DNA of 26,510 nt from Cochliopodium minus (taxonomy: Eukaryota; Discosea; Himatismenida; Cochliopodiidae): the NCBI GenBank assembly GCA_024220525.1, contig JAMYWO010000194.1, positions 53,254-79,763 on the forward strand, read 5' to 3'. Each line of letters opens with the position of its first letter. Position 1 is the first letter of the stretch. The notes under the pieces are model-generated. The model was not told the origin of the DNA. It did no database searches and was given only the letters and a program-made list of their open reading frames with translations. This document shows positions 12,602 to 22,022 of the stretch, in pieces. Position numbers and translations under genes: made by a program.

Positions 12602-14614
<2,013 letters not shown>

Positions 14615-15128
14615 AAAATTTGATGAAATAATTAAAAATAAGAATTTTTTTTTGTATTTCCGAAATTCTTTTTTTTTGATAAAAATGTATTTTTTTTGCT
14701 CGTAAACTTTTGATTTCCTCCAAAAAAAACTTGATTCACATTAAAGAAGATTTAATAAATTCAAGAATACTTGTCTTTTTTGTTGCTGCCCTCTTAAGAT
14801 TTTAAAATTTTCAGTATTTCTTTTGTAATTTAAAAAAGATAATAAAAAAATATTGAAGTTAAATTTGCTTATAATAGTATAAGTAGAAAATATTTTGATA
14901 CATTTTTGCTCAAATGGTACCATCATCATACTCACATTAAAAATATTAAATTTTTAAACTCTTTATGACAATATTTAAAAAAAATTTTCAAAAATAGGGG
15001 AACAAAATAACAAATAAATGTAAAATCTTTCCAAATATCATAATAAGACCAAAATATTAGAGAAATAATTAAATTATTGTATTGAAATTTTTTTCATTTG
15101 TAATTAATTTCTCATAAAATCAAATTAG
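14615..15128. other. Spacer between VPS4 and the LRR-PP2C gene
   Basis: About 515 nt of AT-rich DNA. The first exon of the LRR-PP2C gene should lie here, because the acceptor at 15128 needs an upstream exon ending in phase 1. No ATG followed by a suitable donor could be found. The ATG at about 14913 leads into gtacc in the wrong phase. Either the exon is very short, or sequence is missing. Confidence 0.4.
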
Positions 15129-17276
15129 CCGCAAAAGAGTTCTACGTGGTATTCGAAAAAGAATGTCAAGATAAGAATGTAAAGAAGATGATAGCGAGTA
15201 ATCTGGAAAAATTGAAAGAAAATGAAGATTTAAAATTAATATTCGAAAATATACCTTTGCATATAAAGGGATCAGGAAGTCTGATAAAAACATTCGAAAT
15301 GACAAGTAAATTGATGGAAAATTTGAGGGAATTATCATTAAAAAACACCATCTTTGATTCAAATTGCATCAAATCTTTTTGCACAGTGATAAAAAATGCA
15401 AAACAACTAAAATTGTTGGATATATCAGAAAATGATCATCTCATCTCTTCAAACAAATCCCAAGAATTGTTGGAGATGATCTCTAACATACCTACATTAG
15501 TCACTTTGAACATATCCCAAATGGATTTGGACGATGATATGGCCAATCAACTTCTCACCTCATTGATGAATTTCAAAAACCTATCCTTTTTGGATCTTTC
15601 AAGCAATAAGATATCAAATGCAAGTCTTCCTTTGATAAGAAAACTTATTTCCTCCGTTCTTACCCTTCAATCATTTAATCTTCAGGATAACAACATAGAT
15701 GATAAGGAGGTCAATTTGCTGAAAGAGATAATCAACACTGATCCCAAAAAGAAAGGATTTGGTACCTTGCATCACTCCAATGCAAATAATAAGTCTCATT
15801 CCTTGGATTCTATCAATGAGAAGAGTCGTTTGAGCAATTCTGGCATTCATACCCTTGATTTGGAGATTCCCACTACTCCGAATCACCATAAATCAAGCAA
15901 AGAGCAAGATAATAGCAATAAAAATGGAAATAAAGAAGGGAATAACAGTAAAGATAACGACAACAAGAATACTGGCACGTCCACTCAAGATAATAAGGAT
16001 CATCCTACCAACTACGATAATAATAATTATTTTCCTCAACAAGGAAATGATAAGAATGGGGATGGCAAGGATGATAATAAAAATAATGAGAATAAGATTG
16101 GAAGCAATCAAGAAAATAAAAATAAAATCAACGAGCAAATTGATAGCAATAATAATAACACCAATAATGATAATCCTCCACAAGAAGAAAAGATAGATGT
16201 GAGGGATAGAGGAAAGACGATGATAGGGATGGTGCAGAGAGTGATCAAGGATCCCAACTTTAAAGAGAAGCTCAAGGAGGTTCCTTACTCCAAAAGCAAG
16301 CGTTTCAACTTTGGCCATTCTGAGACTGTTGGCAACCGTCCCTCCATGGAGGATGTTTCTCTCTGTATGGGCTGTTTTAGAGATAGAGAAGACGAAGATT
16401 TGTTTGCTGTTTTTGATGGTAAAAATTTCAATCATTTTTTATTTATTTTTCATTTATTTTTATTTCACATTTTAAAATGTATTTATTTTTTTTACCTTTT
16501 TTTTTTTTTATTCCATATTTTTAAATGTTTGATTTTTTATGTTATGTTTATTTTTTCAAATTTTTTATTTTATTGATTCTTTATTGGAATATCCTTGGTT
16601 TTTTTTTAATGATGACAAACTTCAGTGAATACTGAACTAAATGTAGAAATTATGCTTCCTGAAAAAAAAAACTTATGTTTTATTTTCTTGTATAATTATT
16701 TTTATTTTTGTTTTGTTTTTATTTATCTTTATTCTTTATTCTTTATTTTTTATTTTCATTATTATTTTTTGATATTTTTATTTTTTTTTTTTTCAAATTT
16801 ATTTTTTTATGAATTTTTAGGACACGGAAGTATTGAAGCAGCTTTGCACGTTGCCAAAAACTTTCCAATTGTTTTCAAAGAAGAATTGGAAAAGAATGAA
16901 GAAGACATCATACAATGTTTAGAAAACACTTTCAAAAGCGTCAATGAGAACATGACATGGGCAGAAACGACTGGTAAAAAAAATTTTTTTTATTTTTTTA
17001 TTTTTTTATTATTATTTTATTTTTTTACTTCATTTTTTCATTTTTTATTTTTTTATTTTTTTATTTTTTATTTATTTTTTTTGAAAGGATGTACTGCGGC
17101 AGTCTGTTTTATTAAGGGAACCAAACTTTATTCAGCGAACTGCGGAGACGCAAGAACAGTGGTTTGCGAGGACAGAAAGGGGATCCGCCTTTCCTTTGAC
17201 CACAAACCCAGCCTCCCTGATGAAATCGAAAGAATCAGCAAATTGGGTGGTTACATTGATGGTGGAAGAGTACAAG
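15129..17276 (+). CDS. Leucine-rich-repeat PP2C phosphatase, lacking both ends (3 exons visible)
   Basis: Exons 15129-16418, 16821-16973 and 17088-17276 join in frame. The first part is a run of LRRs of the ribonuclease-inhibitor kind (LRELSLKNT, LKLLDISEN, LVTLNISQMDLDD, LSFLDLSSNKIS, LQSFNLQDNNID). A long Asn/Asp/Lys-rich linker follows (about 15890-16190). Then comes a PP2C domain: SKRFNFGHSETVGNRPSMED, FAVFDGHGS, GCTAAVCFIKGTKLYSANCGD, DHKPSLPDEIERISKLGGYI and GRVQG. The metal-binding Asp residues of MED and DGHG are present. PP2C enzymes are Mg/Mn-dependent Ser/Thr phosphatases, and LRR fusions are known in amoebae and in yeast adenylate cyclase. The domain stops about halfway, at the base before gN (17277-17278), where the next intron should begin. 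The 5' exon is also missing. Confidence 0.88.
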
Positions 17277-17277
17277 G

Positions 17278-17350
17278 NTTTTATTTTTTATTTTTTATTT
17301 TTTATTTTTTATTTTTTATTTTTTATTTTTTATTTTTTATTTTTTATTTT
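17278..17350. repeat. Single N followed by a (TTTTTTA)n heptamer array; probable assembly gap
   Basis: Base 17278 is N, the only ambiguous base in the window. It is followed by about nine copies of TTTTTTA. Both neighbouring genes, which face each other, run into this array by a splice donor and find no further exon. The array is probably where two contigs were joined or collapsed. Confidence 0.75.
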
Positions 17351-17356
17351 ATTTAC

Positions 17357-17831
17357 CAGTTTGAATGGCATGGTGAATGATGGAACCATAATAGATGGGA
17401 GTGACAGTTGTGATGGATGCACCACTGTCCACTATGATCCCTGTGATCTCCTCTACTTCCTCTTTCAAATTAAAAGCAGAGAATTGAGGGGAAAATCCTA
17501 AGAAAAATTTAAAAAAAATTTAAAATGGAATAAAATAAAATAAAGAAAATGAAACAAAATAAAAGAAAAAAAAATAAAAAATAAAAAAATTGAATAAAAA
17601 AAACAAACAAATGAATAAAAAAATAATAAATAAATATTAAAAAAAAAAATGATCAAAATAATATAATCATAATAATAAAAACCTCGTTTTTTTTTGTTTG
17701 CAAAGGCACATTATTATAAAAAAAAACTCGTAATTAAAAAAATAAAAAATAAAAAATAAATAATAAATAATAAATAAATAAATAAATAAATAATAAATAA
17801 AAAATAAATAAATAAAAAATAAATGAATAAA

Positions 17832-17862
<31 letters not shown>

Positions 17863-18188
17863 AAATAAAAAATAATACCAAAGTACAATTTAGAAGGAAT
17901 GAAAGCAAACTCGTTGTCAAACAACTTGTTGGAGAGTTCTTTGGGAGAAGGCTGAAAGAGAGGAACATGAGACAAAAGGATGAGGGGATGTTGAGGATCG
18001 TACTGACCCAATTTGAAAATTAATCTGAAAAATTCTTCGAAAAAGTTTTGATTTGCAGAAACAAAGTTGACATTTGCTGTGTTTATTGGGCGGTTTGCGA
18101 GAATGTTTGGGAGTGTCATATTGTTTGTATTTTGCCTCTCGTTTTTGAGGAGTGATGGCTCCTTGCTTGATGACCACCCATACTTTAC
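17357..18188 (-). CDS. Actin-related protein fragment (2 exons, about 150 codons, both ends missing)
   Basis: Exons 18188-17879 and 17497-17357 join in frame on the minus strand. The second exon holds EEITGIIVDSGASITTVTPI and YYGSIIHHAIQTG, matching the actin segment [20 protein letters not shown]...LPHAI, the second phosphate-binding loop of the fold. The first exon holds VKYGWSSSKEPSLL (actin MVKAGFAGDDAP region), NRPINTANVNF (nucleotide-sensor region) and HPLILLSHVPLFQPSPKELSN (actin HPVLLTEAPLNPKANRE). It is too diverged for actin itself; the class of Arp is not settled. The first strand with the first phosphate loop is missing upstream, and subdomains 3-4 downstream are missing because the second exon's donor leads into the array at 17279-17350. 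Confidence 0.75.
17511..17877. repeat. AT simple-sequence intron of the actin-related fragment
   Basis: The intron between the two Arp exons is dominated by interrupted AAAT/AATAAATA repeats, densest at 17735-17875. The long minus-strand frames here that translate as Tyr/Leu/Phe/Ile repeats are simple-sequence artefacts. Confidence 0.7.
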
Positions 18189-18189
18189 C

Positions 18190-18305
18190 TAAATAAAAAA
18201 AAAATAAAAAATAAAAAAAAAATAATAAATAATAAATAAATAATAAATAATAAATAAATAATAAATAAATAATCAATAATAAAAAATAAAAAAAAATATT
18301 TTAAC
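18190..18305. repeat. AT repeat tract between two truncated minus-strand genes
   Basis: About 115 nt of AAATAAT-type repeats lie between the last visible exon of the PP5-like phosphatase (ends 18306) and the first visible exon of the actin-related fragment (starts 18188). A splice across it would be out of phase: the phosphatase exon ends in phase 2 and the Arp exon opens in phase 0. The tract probably hides missing sequence. Confidence 0.6.
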
Positions 18306-19982
18306 AGTTGTTCGAATATTTTCATCTCAGTGCTTTCATTCCATATTGGTTCGTGAGCTCTGTCATATTTGAAATGGTTGATGTCTTCAATGTTTAAAGT
18401 TTCCACGCAAGGGCCTCCATGTACAACAAAACATTTTTTGTCTAACAAAAATTTTCATTAAAAAATAAAATGAAAATTAAATAAAATAAAAAAATATAAA
18501 ATCAATAAAAAAGAGAATAATTCAAAATTTTTTAAAATATTAAAAAATATTAAAAAAAATTAATAAATACAAGAAAAATCAAAAATCAAAAAAATTGATA
18601 AAAAAAAAATAAAAAATATAAAATCCAAAAAAAAATCTTTAGATAAAAAAAAATAAAAAAAAACTTATTTTAAAAAATAAAATCAAAAATCAAATTTTTT
18701 AAACCTTCTATTAATGCACATAATGGCAAAGCGTTGAAAAGAGATTGGACTTCTTTGTACATGTCGTGAGAGTATCTTTCCAAAAAGCTGGTTTGAAATC
18801 CATATCGCTTGTTTATTCTGCCTATTTCGTGGTTTCCTCTATTGATAAATATGTTTTTCGGAAACATCAATTTAAAGCTCAAAATGAGAAGAAGACATTC
18901 AACAGACTAAAAGATTAATCGAAATTTTTTAATTATTTTTTTTATTATTAAAATAAAAATAAAAATAAAAATTAATTATTTATTTAAAAATAGTTAAAAT
19001 TACATTATTATTAAAATTATTTTATTCATTAAAAATTTTTACTTGCTGACCTCTGTCTACTATGTCTCCATTGAACAAAATAGAATTTTTGAGACTTGGT
19101 AGTCCAGTAATTTCCAACACTGTCAAGAGATCATCTAATTGACCTTTAAAAATGTGACCATTAAAAAAAAAAAATCAAAAATAAAAAAAATAAAAAAAAA
19201 AATACCATGTAAATCTCTTTAAAAAAGGGATTCAAATTTTTTAATTTCCATTTTTTTTTTGTCTGCTTACCCGACAATATGGAACTTTCCATCTTTTGGC
19301 AAATGCAACTTCAACATCAAATCTTCTTCTTTAAACAGTTTTTTGCTTTCTTCTATAATTTTGGTAGCAATATCCTTCTTTATGACTAAAATAAAAAATT
19401 ATAAAAAAATTATAAAAAAATTTTTTTAATTTTTTAATTTTTTTAAATTTAACCTCCTCCTTTTGATATATTATCCAATATTGTTTGTATATCATTCGGA
19501 TTCAATGGCCATTCTACATCAAAGAAGGTCAATCCTCTTTTTAGAGTTTCTTTGGGTGTGCTTTCCTCTTGGGTTTGGGATTCTTCCATCTGCTTCATTT
19601 TGAAATTGTTGATCTTTTCTTTTATAATAGAGCAAATTCACTTTAAATATTTATATATATTTTTGATTATGAAATGCATATTTGTCATTTTAATGTTATA
19701 TATATTTAAATGACACAGAAATTTAATTAATTATAATTTTTGATATACCCATTGCTATTTTCTCCAATTCCATGAATTTCAAATCAACCTATAATTAATG
19801 ATTAAAATTTAGGAATAGTGATATTTAAATTTATGTTTGAAACTTCTATAGAGATTCTTTCTTCATCTTCCTCCAATTTTTTCCAAATTTGTTCCCTAAA
19901 TCAAAAGAATGAATGCTTCAGAAAACAAGAGAAAGATAGAAAAGTATTAATACCAATTTGGCTTCTCCTTTTTGTTCTCCAT
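18306..19982 (-). CDS. PP5-like Ser/Thr protein phosphatase, 3' end missing (9 exons visible)
   Basis: Minus-strand exons are 19982-19954, 19895-19844, 19788-19749, 19618-19454, 19385-19271, 19216-19206, 19143-19043, 18906-18705 and 18441-18306. The catalytic motifs of the PPP family appear in order: GDLHG, GDIVDRG, RGNHE and VHGG, with FNGDIVDRGQQSVE and NRYGF-like NKRYGFQ closest to PP5/PPEF. These Asp, His and Asn residues bind the two catalytic metals. The N-terminal 95 or so residues are charged and helical, with no TPR repeats visible, unlike PP5 of animals. The GDLHG motif needs the 11-nt exon at 19206-19216. The product should continue with WSDP and about 120 more residues ending the catalytic core; instead the last donor (18305-18304) opens into AT repeats. 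The start ATG follows an A tract. Confidence 0.88.
19206..19216 (-). other. 11-nt micro-exon supplying the GDxHG catalytic motif
   Basis: Read on the minus strand the exon is AGATTTACATG, preceded by ...tttaaag and followed by gtatttt. The upstream exon ends in GG (19272-19271) and the downstream exon begins GTCAATTA (19143). Joined, they give GGA GAT TTA CAT GGT CAA, that is G-D-L-H-G-Q. Without it, joining the two larger exons directly gives a stop in the fourth codon and no metal-binding motif. Confidence 0.85.
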
Positions 19983-20098: not shown

Positions 20099-21382
20099 TT
20101 ACAAAAGAGATTTTAAATAATAATTAACAATTTTATACACATAAGAATATTGACTGGAAGTTTGCACACTGCCGTGTCTTTGCTTTCTTATACTAGAAAC
20201 AATCTGAGGAAGATTAATGTTGAAGTTGAGCAACTCGCCACTCAAAAAGAAGTTTTTGTTCTTCAAAAGATCAATGATCTCAAAACAAAAGGCAGAAGCA
20301 ATATAAGTAGCACTTCTCCCAACACCTGCAGAACAATGTACAACAGCAGGTCCATTGAGTCCATCTGTTTCACTTTGTTTTTGGAGTTTCTTTTGAAGGA
20401 GATAAACGTATATTAAGACTTGATAGTCTTCTGGTACACCGTGATCAGGCCATCCAGTGTAATGAACTTGTTTTATGTTTCTTGTAATTCCGCTCACGAG
20501 GTTTTTGATTCGGAGATTTCTTACTATCAGTTGATCTTCAAAGGGAGTGGTCTCTTCAGTTATTGTGATTACAAAATCAGACACTGTGAGTGATTTCCCC
20601 ATTGAAGGCCAAAACTTTACCATTTTGACTCTGTTGTTTTCAACGATTGAGGTCAAAGAGATAATCATTTTTGATTTTGATTGCCATATCATTTCGTAGA
20701 AATCTCCTATCGTCTTGTCAAGTGGTGCTTGCGTTGCTATAAATGTGGAATTACATCCATGTGTACCATTGATGTAATTTGCGTTGATATATTTTGAATG
20801 ATCCGCTTCATAATCCTTATCATCTTGATTCATTGTCAACAAGCTAAGATCATTCATCGATTTTGAGAGTTTGTTATCATGCTTAAAGACAAATCTTGAT
20901 GATTCATTACAAAGAATATCTTGATATCTATTCTTTCCCCAATTTTCAGGATATAGAGATGCTTTGAACATCACCTTTTTTTCATTGAGACTCATTTCAT
21001 CCACTCTTAATGGTTCCATTTCACATATTTCATTGTATTCTTGTTTCATAATTTTATTAATCATTTTGGATGTTACTTCTCCTTCTATATTTGAAAGAGC
21101 AGTTGGAGATATCACAAGTTGGAAGCCTCCCATATCAATTTTTCTATTTCGATTATCTTGATGATTAATTTCCTCTACATAATTTTGTTTATCTTCCAAT
21201 TTTACTATTTCAATTCTTATATCCCTCTCATTGCTGATGATATTTTCTTTATTCAAGTATTTTTTGTCCATATTGCTGTAATTCTTTTTATCAAAGGTCA
21301 ATATGTTATTATTCCCCATATTCTTTGAAAGCAGAAAAAATACCTTTGGAATAGGTTGTGATTTAGAAAATGATTTGATCAT
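20099..21382 (-). CDS. Classical protein tyrosine phosphatase (single exon, 427 aa)
   Basis: An intact frame from ATG 21382 to the stop at 20099 encodes one PTP domain with all standard motifs in order: KNRYQDI, YINANYINGT, ATQAPLDKTIGDFYEMIW, WPDHGVP (general acid Asp near 312), VVHCSAGVGRS (nucleophile Cys350, Arg356) and QTSSQY. KNRYQDI falls where most members have KNRYxDI before the pTyr loop, which is standard. The first 100 or so residues are polar, Asn/Lys-rich and without a signal peptide or membrane span, so this is a cytosolic, non-receptor enzyme that removes phosphate from tyrosine. It is the only intact multi-motif gene in the window without an intron. It ends 116 nt before the start of the PP5-like gene on the same strand and is divergent from the RhoGEF gene. 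Confidence 0.96.
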   Translation of the reverse strand: MIKSFSKSQPIPKVFFLLSKNMGNNNILTFDKKNYSNMDKKYLNKENIISNERDIRIEIVKLEDKQNYVEEINHQDNRNRKIDMGGFQLVISPTALSNIEGEVTSKMINKIMKQEYNEICEMEPLRVDEMSLNEKKVMFKASLYPENWGKNRYQDILCNESSRFVFKHDNKLSKSMNDLSLLTMNQDDKDYEADHSKYINANYINGTHGCNSTFIATQAPLDKTIGDFYEMIWQSKSKMIISLTSIVENNRVKMVKFWPSMGKSLTVSDFVITITEETTPFEDQLIVRNLRIKNLVSGITRNIKQVHYTGWPDHGVPEDYQVLIYVYLLQKKLQKQSETDGLNGPAVVHCSAGVGRSATYIASAFCFEIIDLLKNKNFFLSGELLNFNINLPQIVSSIRKQRHGSVQTSSQYSYVYKIVNYYLKSLL

Positions 21383-22022
21383 TTTATACTTCTTTTCAAT
21401 AAATCCTTTTCTCTCCTTTCTCTAATTTAAATTTAAATTTTTTTTTTATTTTTATTTTTTAAACTTACGAGATCAATTTTAAAGTGAAGAATAAATCCCA
21501 AAATAAGGTTTAGTTATCTTTGGATGTACTCAATATTTTTTCAATTCATGATATGAGATTTCTTATTTTATTTTGTTAATAACATGATAAGTGAAAAGTG
21601 ATGAAATCCAAAATTTAAATTTTTTTTTTCAGAGAAAAAAAAAAAAATCTCTCAAAATGAAAAGAGAAAAAAAGAAAGATAGGAAATACAAATGTTTCTA
21701 TTTTCCTCTTTAAACTTATATTATGAAATATTTTTTCTTTTCTCTTTTTCAAAATTTTTGATAGTTAAAAATATATTTCAAATATTGATATCTGAAATCA
21801 AATGAAAGCAGATGATGAATGAATTACAAAAAATTTTAAATTCTAACCAATACCAACAAGTAATATAATAATTATAATTCCTTTTTTCAAGAATTCATTC
21901 AAAAATATCAACATTTTTTCCATAGTCTCTTTTTGAAATTTTTTTTGAATTGTATTTAAAAATATATTTTCAATTTTTCTTTTTTTTTTTTTGCATTTTA
22001 TAAAAATATATAAAAAAAATAT
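21383..22022. other. Divergent promoter region between the PTP and RhoGEF genes
   Basis: About 640 nt separate two genes transcribed away from each other, so both promoters must lie here. The sequence is AT-rich with several T and A runs (about 21430-21460, 21618-21645, 21970-21995). No specific binding motif can be singled out, and no gene is seen. Confidence 0.55.

Follow-up and report, generated by a model that had tools for sequence, protein, structure and literature searches.

An 11-nucleotide micro-exon predicted to complete the GDxHG motif of a PPP-type phosphatase gene in Cochliopodium minus

The phosphatase locus and its surroundings

The whole stretch of DNA analyzed herein (26,510 nt; hereafter, the window) corresponds to bases 53254-79763 of contig C194, reaching the contig end at 79763, in a genome of 44.65 Mb distributed over 598 contigs. 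Its G+C content was 25.5% (A+T 74.5%). On the minus strand, six open exons of 145, 115, 11, 101, 202, and ~140 nt encoded 238 residues, the N-terminal part of a PPP-type phosphatase, and all five introns between them were of the GT-AG type. The three motifs used to recognize PPP membership, GDxHG, GDxVDRG, and GNHE, were all present and intact in the spliced protein. The features considered were as follows.

19454..19598, minus strand: PPP exon 1, 145 nt; putative ATG at 19598, GT donor at 19453
19386..19453, minus strand: PPP intron 1, GT-AG, 68 nt
19271..19385, minus strand: PPP exon 2, 115 nt; its 3' end supplies bases 1 and 2 of the codon for the initial Gly of GDLHG
19217..19270, minus strand: PPP intron 2, GTAAGC...TTTAAAG, 54 nt
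19206..19216, minus strand: micro-exon AGATTTACATG, 11 nt; third base of the Gly codon, Asp-Leu-His, and first base of the next Gly codon
19144..19205, minus strand: PPP intron 3, GTATTT...TTTAAAG, 62 nt
19043..19143, minus strand: PPP exon 4, 101 nt; (G)QLDDLL...NGDIVDRGQQ, with the PPP motif GDxVDRG
18705..18906, minus strand: PPP exon 5, 202 nt; SVECLL...INRGNHE..., with the PPP motif GNHE
18302..18441, minus strand: PPP exon 6, ...CFVVHGG...EQLL; its 3' limit is approximate (~18302) and enters simple repeats
18200..18300, no strand assigned: simple repeat of ATTT/AATA, where the gene model ends
12602..14614, plus strand: VPS4-type ATPase gene with six GT-AG introns backed by P0109; splicing control for the genome

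In the spliced alignment with P0001, exon 1 began at 19586. The control gene was matched by P0109 (433 aa, 97% identity), which fitted once the six GT-AG introns were removed and, being located on a 1377-nt contig, was taken as a transcript.

Several observations concern the sequence around the phosphatase gene. A protein-tyrosine phosphatase (PF00102, 212.5 bits) occupied a single long frame at 20099-21421 on the minus strand, adjoining the split-up PPP gene. The region 17085-17520 began with an exon that we take to be PP2C-like, followed by an N at 17278 and ATTTT repeats, and then by a short actin-like fragment (17349-17519, minus strand; PF00022, 27.2 bits, cut-off 27); the region looks like a doubtful assembly join. 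An open stretch on the minus strand at 17900-18190, with AATA repeats on either side, contained LILLSHVPLF, which presumably recalls metallophosphoesterases of the MPPE1/Cdc1 kind, and had no Pfam match.

The micro-exon and its support against chance

The 3' end of exon 2 (19385-19271, minus strand) reads ...ATT GTC GG/GTAAGC, where slashes mark splice sites, the micro-exon AGATTTACATG lies between TTTAAAG and GTATTT, and the downstream exon opens at 19143 as AAAG/GTCAATTAGATG. When spliced, GTC GG/A GAT TTA CAT G/GT CAA reads V G D L H G Q, with the 11 nt completing HIV-GDLHG-QLDD across two split glycine codons.

We enumerated joinings between 19385 and 19043 that used one or two GT-AG introns, each 30 nt or longer (125 + 1387 = 1512). 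Of these, 113 were open and four contained GDxHG, all via the acceptor at 19216; a single joining also retained QLDDLL behind the motif. No open one-intron joining yielded GDxHG. Coding micro-exons are understood here as internal exons of at most 15 nt that have canonical splice sites on both sides and are needed for the reading frame or for conserved residues. The present exon has 11 nt bounded as AG/.../GT and belongs to the one joining in 1512 that fits. Its length is not a multiple of three, contrary to the length criterion for regulated, neural-type micro-exons.

The locus was also aligned to 108 homologues with a spliced aligner of our own, which employed BLOSUM62, gap costs, obligatory GT and AG, an intron cost, and small bonuses for splice-site context, and which is not assumption-free because of these bonuses. 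In this alignment, blind to the finding, exactly 19216-19206 was recovered with 92/108 homologues. Six others gave 19215-19206, since their local alignment starts at 19215, and ten made no use of the micro-exon, eight of them starting downstream and two (P0087 and P0102) favoring another upstream piece. The alignment and the enumeration thus bear out what the earlier note had proposed for 19206..19216, that is, an 11-nt micro-exon encoding GDxHG of a PPP enzyme, with exact coordinates and both phases as claimed.

When the intervening sequence was subjected to 1000 dinucleotide shuffles for each of two queries, GDxHG was placed in none, any other middle exon was placed in two and 15 shuffles, respectively, and with either query the highest-scoring shuffle equalled the real score. 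Runs with other seeds gave 1/200 and 0/1000 shuffles that reached this score. These results bear on the idea of an assembly or base-calling error, in which an indel makes the exons seem unjoinable and the 11-nt match is due to chance. The assembly does contain N's and homopolymer-rich introns; however, a GDLHG that fits the splice sites and the phases on either side is unexpected by chance (0/1000), the upstream exon meets a stop right behind its GT, and a similar exon in a Rab2-like gene is backed by the transcript-derived protein P0229. We consider such an error scarcely credible and, as judged from the DNA, conclude that the 11-nt segment at minus 19216-19206 is a genuine coding micro-exon.

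Skipping of the micro-exon gave ...KFHIVGSIR and a stop at codon 91, three codons past the split Gly codon, and a Pfam search of the product gave no Metallophos match, while the full model scored 83.7 bits and exons 4-6 alone 67.0 bits (PF00149, cut-off 21.5). It was therefore correctly anticipated that skipping would remove both the motif and the frame. Retention of the upstream intron led to an immediate stop and retention of the downstream intron to a stop after residue 113. The acceptor is followed 2 nt later by another AG (AAAGAG), with which the frame stops after residue 93. The locus is thus a clean case of a catalytic motif hidden from exon-by-exon gene finding, in which the skipped model has no Pfam phosphatase match, and the expectation that gene finders easily overlook such an exon is a fair one in light of the available excerpts of PMC8831610.

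The same consequences would suit a regulated cassette, in which the enzyme is turned on or off according to whether the 11-nt exon is included. The frameshift and early stop upon skipping would make such a switch effective, and the alternative AG past the acceptor also leads to a stop. The evidence that weighs on the other side comes from other genes and is presented with them below.

Phosphatase family and the missing C-terminal half

Among the matches listed (60 of 95), the closest solved structures were calcineurin A (E 3.2e-33), followed by PP1, PP5, and RdgC. The window protein has the GDxHG, GDxVDRG, GNHE, and HGG motifs in common with PP5, PPEF (RdgC), PP1, and calcineurin, but, unlike these, its gene has the N-terminal half of the domain only. 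A model of the PP5 TPR region scored 14.6 bits on the window protein, under the cut-off of 23.5, and no IQ or EF-hand models were reported by Pfam for the 238 residues. Divergence of the gene is apparent from the 108 homologues, of which the top-scoring one had 38% identity across 92% of the query, and higher identities were confined to shorter stretches (the highest listed being 59% over 29% of the query). Neither a close orthologue nor a transcript-derived protein of the window phosphatase was found in this protein search, which covered ~131-416 aa. In another search covering ~72-227 aa, the matches listed (120 of 148) all carried a Ras domain and included no transcript-derived protein for the window phosphatase or for a second phosphatase located on contig C61.

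RSH and SAPNY are C-terminal metal/substrate motifs that define PPP phosphatases, and they were visible in relatives of the window protein, for example P0041. With four queries, neither these motifs nor a second domain half was found in 14800-18300. No N was present at 18200-18300, and a DNA search of the locus against its own genome recovered, among the best 40 candidates scored, only the locus itself and AT-rich intron sequence. A stretch at C30:15142 was considered as the missing half and rejected, as it has N-terminal exons of its own (DRGPHSLEL...GNHE) a short way upstream on C30 (1.7 kb examined).

With its C-terminal half missing in the assembly, the PPP gene could be non-functional, and the locus might be a pseudogene or gene fragment in which the micro-exon is a functionless remnant. 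The model indeed ends at ~18302, ahead of the C-terminal half of the PPP domain, the adjoining stretches resemble fragments of other genes and are bounded by simple repeats, and neither search above recovered a transcript-derived protein of this gene. Against this reading stand the six open exons, the five GT-AG introns, and the three intact PPP motifs, as well as the fact that the assembly breaks genes elsewhere. Specifically, a calcineurin-type gene is split between its first half (L048) on contig C413 and its second half (L053) on contig C435; over its first 88 nt, C435 is 97.7% identical to C413, the match extending as far as an N in C413, past which C413 continues with different sequence. 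The ending of this match at the N is evidence of a putative wrong join at that position. Because the same assembly breaks this gene, an assembly break is probably the better explanation for the missing half than a pseudogene, and we regard the latter as unlikely.

A further pair of models showed a related arrangement, in that the PPP model L042 (C42) ends inside GNHE at a GT and the model L043, near the end of C350, starts after an AG with the expected next residues. Judging by these ends, the two are possibly halves of one gene.

We examined 19 PPP/metallophosphatase loci (L039-L057), of which L043, L052, L053, and L055 were left out since the motif was not reached or no usable model was obtained. 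GDxHG was placed in 13 of 16 PPP-type models (window gene included), and an 11-nt exon was present at or adjoining the motif in two of the 13, namely the window gene and the C61 gene. Neither of the introns flanking the window micro-exon was common to the other 12 models with a placed GDxHG. In the C61 phosphatase, the 11-nt exon AAATTATGAAG lies immediately 3' of GDLHG, and its score was reached in 30/200 shuffles with a distant query and in 0/300 with a paralogue as query. Equivalence of the two micro-exons was considered and rejected; the C61 exon also has 11 nt and equal phases but lies four codons later, so its introns differ from those of the window. A 22-nt exon indicated in the C61 gene by the distant query was likewise rejected, having disappeared when the paralogue was the query. 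The score of this rejected exon was reached in 0/200 shuffles, and hence the shuffle test by itself did not expose the wrong call.

Micro-exons in other genes and the splicing of the window exon

A Rab2-like gene (C201) contained an 11-nt exon, TTGCAAATATG, located between introns of 68 and 54 nt and encoding part of LQIWD. The EukProt protein P0229 (210 aa), which is named as a Trinity transcript ORF and was therefore taken as transcript-derived, was identical to the spliced model at 208/208 residues, its last two residues lying outside the DNA compared. This identity means that the organism, or a very close one, joins the 11-nt exon exactly.

A broader sample of the Ras family comprised 19 loci with introns, seven of 20 in one set (the other 13 being meant as reference sources) and 12/12 of another. 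These loci were chosen from the listed part of 164 matches, mostly for alignments beginning within the domain; this choice favors broken-up genes, and the frequencies obtained apply to the sample rather than to the whole genome. Terminal exons were excluded from the counts. Among the 31 internal exons of the 19 genes, 17 had at most 51 nt, 11 at most 27 nt, and three at most 15 nt, and at least one exon of 27 nt or less was present in 8/19 genes; for mammals, 94% of coding exons are given as >51 nt (excerpt of PMC4317164). The lengths of five of the 11 small exons were multiples of three, showing no clear bias, with numbers too low to exclude a mild one, and such lengths do not suggest a programme of in-frame skipping. 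In a shuffle test of the 11 micro-exons (200 trials), the scores of nine were never reached, that of a 20-nt exon was reached once, and that of a 13-nt exon ten times, the last dropping to 1/300 with a paralogue query. Micro-exons are common in the sampled genes, and the window exon is not special among them. One Ras-type match (G000:C1:633782-634150) lay within an open frame of 14,711 residues, perhaps that of a giant protein.

The median intron of the Ras sample was 70.5 nt (n = 50), and introns flanking micro-exons did not differ from the others (medians of 67 and 77 nt, respectively; Mann-Whitney p = 0.42), indicating that short flanks are a trait of the sample and not of micro-exons. A single MAFFT alignment placed 31 distinct intron positions in the 19 genes, 21 of them in one gene only. 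In the same alignment, the intron before LQ(I/L)W was common to three Rabs (L080, L085, and L078), and the next intron was kept in L080 and L085. The intron pair of an 18-nt exon was common to the Rabs L080 and L085, and that of a 24-nt exon to the Ras-like L076 and L088. Variable intron positions, together with the retention of some micro-exons, fit intron gain close to pre-existing introns and stable retention thereafter.

These data bear on the regulated cassette introduced above. The sample has many micro-exons, their lengths are mixed (5/11 being multiples of three), some of their intron pairs are kept between paralogues, as is the case with constitutive exons, and the 11-nt Rab2-like exon is present in its transcript-derived protein. 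No skip product turned up in the protein searches, although these were hardly suited to reveal one. The on/off switch put forward in the earlier note consequently finds no support, and we deem a cassette very unlikely. Given that the sampled genes are rich in micro-exons, the window exon looks like an ordinary, always-included exon rather than a switch.

The micro-exon of potato invertase codes for a portion of a catalytic motif. More generally, coding micro-exons in conserved domains are already known, best in plants, to which the PPP exon adds one (excerpts of PMC8831610 and PMC12409088). Like the window exon, the plant exons described in these excerpts (PMC8831610; MEPDB, PMC12409088) are 1-15 nt in length, occur in genes for protein domains, and are often unannotated; many are constitutively spliced, and their omission shifts the frame or drops residues. 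Examples of 9 nt named in the available portion of PMC12409088 are those of potato invertase and of the Arabidopsis AP2 domain. Unlike these plant exons, the window exon is in a protist, in a different gene family, and between short AT-rich introns. According to the same excerpts, introns of plant micro-exons show more delayed splicing (PMC8831610, PMC12409088), and the word "phosphatase" is never mentioned in the main text of PMC8831610. No catalogue of protist micro-exons was found in the literature searched, which reflects the limits of the searches as much as a finding; micro-exons of 3-15 nt have been sought in the ichthyosporean Creolimax (excerpt of PMC4739763).

In the accessible part of PMC8378409, C. 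elegans micro-exons require PRP-40 except where introns are very short; two PRP-40-independent micro-exons had introns down to 49 nt, and swapping one upstream intron for a 58-nt one abolished the need for PRP-40. Animal neuronal and PRP-40-dependent C. elegans micro-exons have at most 27 nt and, as for the window exon, intron definition has been proposed for them, but they are largely alternative and cell-specific (same excerpt), whereas here there was no sign of regulation and no clear multiple-of-three bias.

We hold it to be probable that the 11 nt form a constitutively included coding micro-exon of a PPP gene in an AT-rich, intron-dense protist, spliced by intron definition and left between two close introns, and we infer that it is included in most transcripts. 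Each short intron (54 and 62 nt) would be recognized as a unit by intron definition, not across the exon, with the 11 nt being the remainder between them. Intron definition is proposed because introns are short here and because of the C. elegans PRP-40 results (excerpt of PMC8378409). The micro-exon itself would have arisen through intron gain that placed two introns 11 nt apart, and not as a regulatory device. The earlier note called exons this small difficult for spliceosomes; this applies mainly under exon definition with long introns, and the introns here have 54 and 62 nt. Two points count against intron definition. Introns of micro-exons were not shorter than others in the Ras sample (p = 0.42), and PMC8831610, in the excerpt available, argues that the two flanking introns of a micro-exon compete even under intron definition, and hence are removed one after the other.

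The richness of the genome in micro-exons is the more interesting part of the finding. We tentatively propose, with a confidence that stops a little short of evenly balanced, that this lineage may have no effective lower limit on exon size, and that ongoing intron gain may have cut its coding sequence, including the most conserved motifs (GDxHG of PPP, WDTAG of Rabs, and the P-loop of Ras), into 11-24-nt constitutive exons whose splicing relies purely on intron definition. If this is true, standard gene prediction would get a large share of the internal exons wrong, and with them a large share of the annotated proteins. With exons of 11-24 nt common among the Ras-family genes sampled, and one or more of these exons supported by a transcript-derived protein, this genome offers a natural test of whether intron definition abolishes the minimum exon size.
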